This document shows positions 15,259 to 15,417 of a stretch of DNA of 64,000 nucleotides, piece by piece. The stretch's first letter is position 1; the number at the start of each line of letters is the position of its first letter. The position numbers and the translations under genes were made by a program. Origin of the DNA: Oscillospiraceae bacterium. GTDB lineage: Bacteria > Bacillota > Clostridia > Oscillospirales > Acutalibacteraceae. A model generated the notes under the pieces. It was not told where the DNA came from. It saw nothing but the letters and a program-made list of their open reading frames with translations, and ran no database searches. The stretch covers positions 1 to 64,000 of the forward strand of contig JAITGE010000012.1 in NCBI GenBank assembly GCA_031280825.1. The letters are read 5' to 3'.

Positions 15259-15292
15259 TCAAAAAACAAAGCCCCGCAGCCTGCGCTGCGAG
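15259..15292 (-). terminator. Attenuator terminator in the aro leader
   Basis: On the minus strand CCTCGCAGC (15284-15292) pairs with GCTGCGGGG (15271-15279) across a 4-base loop, with one G-T pair, followed by TTTGTTTTTT. It lies between the leader peptide and aroF, so it must be read through for the operon to be expressed. A competing antiterminator pairs 15339-15352 with 15282-15295 (12 of 14 bases) and would bury the terminator's first arm. Confidence 0.8.
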
Positions 15293-15318
15293 GTTGTGTT
15301 CTTCGGCTTCATGAAGGA

Positions 15319-15417
15319 TTACCGTCTGAACCTGCTCCCAACCACGCTGCGCCCTGCCCTGCTAAAAAAGGCAAAGCTGCTAAAGCGAAACCAGTTGGCT
15401 TGGGCGGCATGATACAT
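15319..15417 (-). CDS. Aromatic-rich leader peptide of the aro operon (32 aa)
   Basis: A 32-codon frame starting 22 bases after the predicted transcription start, with GAGGGAG (15425-15431) 7 bases before its ATG. It contains Tyr2, Trp9 and Phe at 10, 12, 15, 17, 18 and 30: five Phe codons within nine positions, directly after Trp. The last third is basic (RAGRSVVGSRFRR). Codon 18 ends 11 bases before the antiterminator's first arm, so a ribosome waiting on the Phe codons would leave that arm free, while a moving ribosome would mask it. This is the layout of classical pheL/trpL-type attenuation. I infer that the peptide has no other function. Confidence 0.75.
   Translation of the reverse strand: MYHAAQANWFRFSSFAFFSRAGRSVVGSRFRR

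Follow-up and report, generated by a model that had tools for sequence, protein, structure and literature searches.

Described leader-peptide attenuators and the present locus

The E. coli pheA and pheST attenuators stall on uncharged Phe-tRNA (cited in PMC11802643). The leader analyzed here lies in a 64,000-nt stretch of an Oscillospiraceae genome (hereafter the window) and likewise combines Phe codons with a terminator/antiterminator switch; the E. coli systems, as described in PMC11802643, differ in being gammaproteobacterial and in controlling pheA or pheST, not DAHP synthase, and the Rfam models of the pheA/pheST attenuators gave no match here. In Corynebacterium glutamicum, Phe limitation leads to read-through at the aroR leader (Neshat et al. 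2014, as summarized in PMC11802643). By that description, on which the likeness is based, aroR also places a leader peptide, in its case with Phe-Tyr-Phe, before a DAHP synthase operon, but the host is an actinobacterium. The uORFC-13-1 motif consists of a predicted Phe uORF and a terminator directly 5' of aroF, with 24 examples restricted to Acholeplasma and environmental sequences; unlike the window family, and compared by description only, it is presented in the relevant text of PMC8632094 with no 1:2/2:3/3:4 switch. Furthermore, Fig. 6b of PMC6429828 depicts two uORF candidates encoding Phe and Tyr and tied to shikimate metabolism genes, and these may be identical to the window family.

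Within the Bacillota, the Rli60 leader of the Listeria ilv operon is a ribosome-mediated attenuator supported by mutants (PMC5864092). It is a four-segment attenuator like the window leader, although it has branched-chain codons and is likened by description only. His leaders are also known in Bacillota (PMC2965389, PMC9413887), and T-box control has been reported there for his genes (PMC9413887). No clear description of a Clostridial DAHP-synthase leader family was found in the open-licence literature, and a prior description is possible. The design at the present locus is that of a textbook attenuator, while the family to which it belongs is conserved in gut Clostridia and apparently uncatalogued.

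Organization of the leader and operon

All features of the locus lie on the minus strand, and coordinates are given in the direction of transcription. A sigma-70-type promoter was read directly from the sequence at 15474-15446, comprising a -35 element (TTGACA, 15474-15469), a 17-nt spacer, and an extended -10 element TGCTACAAT with TACAAT at 15451-15446; the transcription start was placed from the promoter sequence at about 15438. An SD-like sequence, AGAGGGAG (15432-15425), precedes the leader peptide ORF (15417-15319), which encodes MYHAAQANWFRFSSFAFFSRAGRSVVGSRFRR in 32 codons followed by a stop codon. Its control codons are Phe10, 12, 15, 17, and 18, i.e. five Phe within codons 10-18. An intrinsic terminator (15293-15261) is placed upstream of the first structural gene and has a 9-bp stem (arm 1, 15293-15285; arm 2, 15280-15272), a 4-nt loop (15284-15281), and a U-rich tract up to 15261.

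The first structural gene (15208-14219) encodes a type I DAHP synthase with a ferredoxin-like N-terminal domain (Pfam PF00793 and PF18152; NCBIfam TIGR01361). Its start codon is probably the ATG at 15208, and it would be the first gene under the leader's control. The genes that follow were assigned by Pfam matches and ORF coordinates as aroB (14198-13137), aroA (13149-11911), aroC (about 11948-10836), and pheA, encoding chorismate mutase-prephenate dehydratase (about 10836-9691); given this gene order, the operon heads towards phenylalanine. Upstream of the leader, a gene for a LysM and GH18 domain protein of unrelated function occupies 16968-15544 on the same strand.

Mutually exclusive pairings in the window

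Region 2, the antiterminator strand GCGCAGCGUGGUUG (15352-15339), lies within leader codons 22-27, extending from the third base of codon 22 into the first base of codon 27, and begins 11 nt past the Phe18 codon (15366-15364), in agreement with a preliminary description of this locus made from the sequence alone. It pairs with region 3, CAACCUCGCAGCGC (15296-15283), at 12 of 14 positions. That count and the two isolated mismatches, located at 15348 and 15344, had been given correctly, while the partner interval had been set one base off at 15282-15295. Similarly, arm 1 of the terminator lies fully inside this pairing as had been proposed, with its span corrected from 15284-15292 to 15293-15285. 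Because the entire arm 1 is contained within the region 2/3 pairing, the terminator and antiterminator are mutually exclusive and only one of them can form at a time, as originally claimed. The 12-bp helix uses GGUUG with CAACC, a segment whose start lies 5' of arm 1; region 2 also repeats the CGCAGCG of arm 1 and can pair with arm 2 too.

The window duplex had an energy of -24 to -25 kcal/mol. Shuffling the window leader gave p = 0.02-0.04 for this duplex and p = 0.05 for the share of arm 1 that is already paired upstream while arm 2 is still missing. Taken alone, the pairing at the window locus is only modestly beyond chance.

A further helix, absent from the preliminary description, was predicted by folding between region 1, the protector strand CCCAAGCCA (15404-15396), and 15344-15337. 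This protector helix would sequester the antiterminator strand in the absence of a stalled ribosome.

Folding with and without a ribosome

For folding of the window leader, the ribosomal A site was set at each codon in turn, and structures were computed for the RNA 3' of the ribosome, which was left free. The free-energy comparison bore out the geometry initially proposed: with the A site at Phe10, 12, 15, 17, or 18 and the transcript ending at 15283, the antiterminator had a probability of 0.89-1.0. When the transcript ended at 15271, with arm 2 made, the terminator stem had a probability of at most 0.14 at the same Phe codons. A ribosome at codon 20 or later gave terminator probabilities of 0.92-1.0, and the ribosome-free leader formed the protector helix with P = 0.78 and the terminator with P = 1.0. 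With region 2 exposed, the terminator probability was 0.0003-0.07, compared to 0.87-0.96 with the spacer shuffled.

For transcripts ending at 15271 with the ribosome at Phe10, Phe17, or Phe18, the 12-bp helix did not dominate and nor did the terminator, because rival pairings of region 2, arm 2 included, compete; among folds of the transcripts with 3' ends at 15271 and 15262, some had region 2 paired with arm 2. A variant in which the attenuator is real, while the working antiterminator is either a short helix in the register common to the family or a pairing of 15352-15346 with arm 2, draws on these folds, on the CGCAGCG repeat, and on the roughly 4 pairs of the family register that the window retains. 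It is nonetheless unlikely given the dominance of the 12-bp helix before arm 2 is made, when the ribosome is on the Phe codons.

Allowing the 5' RNA to pair across the ribosome shifted the window equilibrium at 15271 to the terminator, so the switch then relies in part on the antiterminator having formed first, a condition that attenuation models usually share. Furthermore, the stop codon lies 3' of region 2, and a ribosome completing the leader has therefore passed region 2. In the folding model, the protector helix or the bulk of the ribosome must then separate region 2 from region 3.

Proposed mechanism

The locus contains a promoter and a translatable ORF with a ribosome binding site, codons matching the end product, a terminator, an exclusive antiterminator, and a protector helix. 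We consider it about 90% probable that the operon DAHP synthase-aroB-aroA-aroC-pheA is controlled through ribosome-mediated transcription attenuation at this leader, in the manner of E. coli trp and pheA, and the mechanism put forward in the preliminary description is well supported; from these elements we infer stalling, read-through, and a response to Phe. RNA polymerase would start at about 15438 with a ribosome trailing on the 32-codon leader. With ample Phe-tRNA, this ribosome would cross codons 10-18, cover and then pass region 2, leaving region 2 unavailable when region 3 emerges; region 3 and arm 2 would pair and transcription would stop at the U tract. Under Phe-tRNA shortage, the ribosome is predicted to stall at Phe10-Phe18, occupying region 1 or nearby RNA and leaving region 2 (15352 onwards) free to capture region 3 ahead of the synthesis of arm 2, upon which the polymerase would read into the operon. 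In the absence of translation, region 1 would hold region 2 and the terminator would form.

Conservation among relatives

A Phe/Tyr-rich leader ORF and terminator were present at 88 of 108 DAHP-synthase loci, and the promoter-leader-terminator layout recurs 5' of DAHP synthase in many relatives. Most of the 88 loci came from MAGs of Oscillospiraceae and other Clostridia; a few came from isolates and a few from MAGs labelled as other phyla. Isolates with the leader include Angelakisella massiliensis (L056), Yanshouia hominis, Emergencia sp., and Ruminococcus sp. zg-924. Three MAGs labelled Oligosphaeraceae, Planctomycetia, and Treponema (L036, L080, and L089) carry the same leader type and encode DAHP synthases 63-68% identical to that of the window, reflecting either transfer or mis-binning.

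T-boxes are the usual control for amino-acid genes of this kind in Bacillota, which would favor a riboswitch or T-box sensing a metabolite or tRNA directly, with the short ORF incidental. Against this, no Rfam 15 family, T-box included, matched the window or ten relatives at the gathering threshold (none matched the window leader at E up to 1), and 88 of the 108 loci retain the ORF together with its control codons, making direct sensing highly improbable. The ribosome-mediated attenuator proposed above would mean that aromatic amino-acid synthesis is widely controlled by E. coli-style leader-peptide attenuation in gut Clostridia, bacteria for which T-boxes would normally be the expectation.

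Pairing was compared across all 88 loci, without selection for pairing, by matching the region following the control codons to its own terminator arm and to those of other loci. The mean was -19.1 kcal/mol with the own terminator and -13.9 kcal/mol with swapped ones (Wilcoxon p = 7e-15). This swap test across relatives is decisive for the pairing. With the ribosome at the last control codon and before arm 2, more than half of arm 1 was paired upstream in 85 of the 88 loci, vs 23 of 88 by the same measure with shuffled spacers (p = 2e-15). Once the terminator was complete, only 27 of 88 loci favored the alternative at equilibrium; no shuffled mean did so. Arm 1 was still paired upstream in 38 of the 88 leaders when ribosome-free, and protector helix strength is therefore uneven among loci.

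These data also bear on whether the terminator serves the LysM-GH18 gene, with the alternative pairing a matter of chance. The 3' end of that gene, which shares the strand of the leader, is at 15544, and the window pairing alone reaches only p = 0.02-0.05. A consensus promoter and the leader ORF lie in between, however, promoter, leader, and terminator recur as a unit before DAHP synthase in many relatives, and covariation (below) and swap tests are contrary to a stray terminator, the latter refuting it at the family level. It can be regarded as scarcely credible beside a terminator dedicated to the DAHP synthase operon.

Leader and terminator were both kept at nine genus-level loci that have a complete element, a count that takes in the window. 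Each own duplex among the nine was at least slightly better than the swapped mean, several barely, and four of the nine had p < 0.05 vs shuffles. The genus-level loci L121, L122, and L124 had no leader ORF; L113, cut by a contig end, and L003, with the leader present, stand outside the nine. In the closest relative (L032/L112; DAHP synthase 87% identical) the antiterminator is in the family register.

Covariation

Alignment A1 contained 46 leaders aligned by sequence only. Its rows were picked partly for showing the canonical core, and the 88-locus swap test is therefore the unbiased test. A segment homologous to region 2 is conserved across A1. The A1 antiterminator, UUUUGCUGC with GCAGUGAAA, was paired in 89% of cells with both-side changes at 6 of 9 pairs, and had a covariation score of 0.339 compared to 0.222 for shuffles and at most 0.159 for slid registers. 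The terminator stem scored 0.583 (95% of cells paired). Covariation of the protector helix, UUUUGCAGC with GCUGCAAAA, was weaker than that of the other family helices (0.230 vs 0.162 for shuffles; 70% of cells paired), an example being GCAGC/GCUGC to ACAGC/GCUGU. RNAalifold on A1 yielded the terminator only, because one consensus cannot hold two exclusive structures.

The strong helix of the window is slipped from the family register, and region 1 of the window falls within the family region 1 columns with its register shifted by about 4 nt. Column-wise covariation, which had been proposed as the decisive check, therefore supports the antiterminator and terminator of the family, not the exact slipped helix of the window. 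The family has no Rfam 15 match, and the analysis supplies it with an alignment and a working covariance model.

Related leaders before other amino-acid genes

A covariance model built from DAHP-synthase leaders only (R1) was searched first against 245 and later against 391 genomes at the class level, and also against the order to which one of these belongs, with E-values from a shortened calibration. Besides DAHP synthase, R1 matched leaders before pheA, phenylacetate-CoA ligase, leuA, and ilvB, and every non-DAHP example tested had its own antiterminator (p <= 0.013 vs shuffles). Leaders before pheA occurred in other families of the class (L139, L144, L148, L149, L151, L221, L223, and L232) and carried Phe codons, without Tyr in 7 of 8 compared to 1 of 88 DAHP-synthase leaders (Mann-Whitney p = 5e-5, with several of the pheA leaders from one genus).

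The leuA and ilvB leaders came from one genome apiece. The leuA leader (L146 1501-1658, genome G336; R1 E = 3.4e-8 per genome) encodes the Leu-rich peptide MKSQFSAQLNLLNLALLLQG and has an antiterminator and a terminator, with region 2 surroundings, GCAAGGTTGATTTGAGTTTTGCTG, much like those of DAHP-synthase leaders. No such leader was present within the 330 bases upstream of the DAHP synthase of this genome, and the leuA relatives checked in the window's taxonomic family had no Leu-rich leader. Upstream of ilvB in genome G577, tandem leaders encode the Ile/Leu/Val-rich peptides MSTLFISLILIISIIVISNNVSLCYADKEGSL and MFLNFVISLLLVIIIINIIDNNDLCCADYKG (L250 1501-1661 and 1680-1841; L241 1322-1482 and 1501-1662), with R1 E = 2e-5 and 3e-6 and an antiterminator and terminator in each.

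A TnaC-like arrest, in which the ribosome is stalled by the nascent peptide together with a small molecule rather than in response to tRNA charging, could account for a leader longer than needed past Phe18 and for the recurrence of part of the peptide tail among relatives. The leader peptides share little except codon type, however, and the recurring tail overlaps the antiterminator strand, so it is explained by RNA pairing; the leuA and ilvB leaders matched by R1, moreover, have Leu or Ile/Leu/Val in place of the aromatics. Arrest of this kind is thus very unlikely. Since the control codons differ from target to target but the RNA switch is retained, either peptide-specific arrest or a riboswitch is hard to uphold, and the match between codons and target, as read from these leaders, is the strongest argument for codon-specific stalling.

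With codon-specific stalling as the preferred reading, there is roughly an even chance that one homologous Clostridia scaffold of protector, antiterminator strand, and terminator moved between amino-acid pathways, its specificity reset mainly by control-codon substitution. Such a scaffold would carry Phe and Tyr codons at DAHP synthase, only Phe at pheA, and Leu at leuA, with two tandem Ile/Leu/Val leaders at ilvB. A change from Phe to Leu takes one base per codon. The leuA and ilvB leaders may reflect either homology or convergence with DAHP-synthase leaders; if true homologues, they represent a natural experiment in which control codons alone can set attenuator specificity.

Most R1 matches that had E near 1e-4 or above and did not lie upstream of an amino-acid gene seem fortuitous (L234-236, L238, L243-245, L248, and L249). 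In the window's own genome, the window leader was the sole R1 match at E up to 0.1. A Phe/Tyr-rich leader of the DAHP-synthase leader family also precedes a phenylacetate-CoA ligase gene (L226 201-368), a position that would fit Phe synthesis from phenylacetate.
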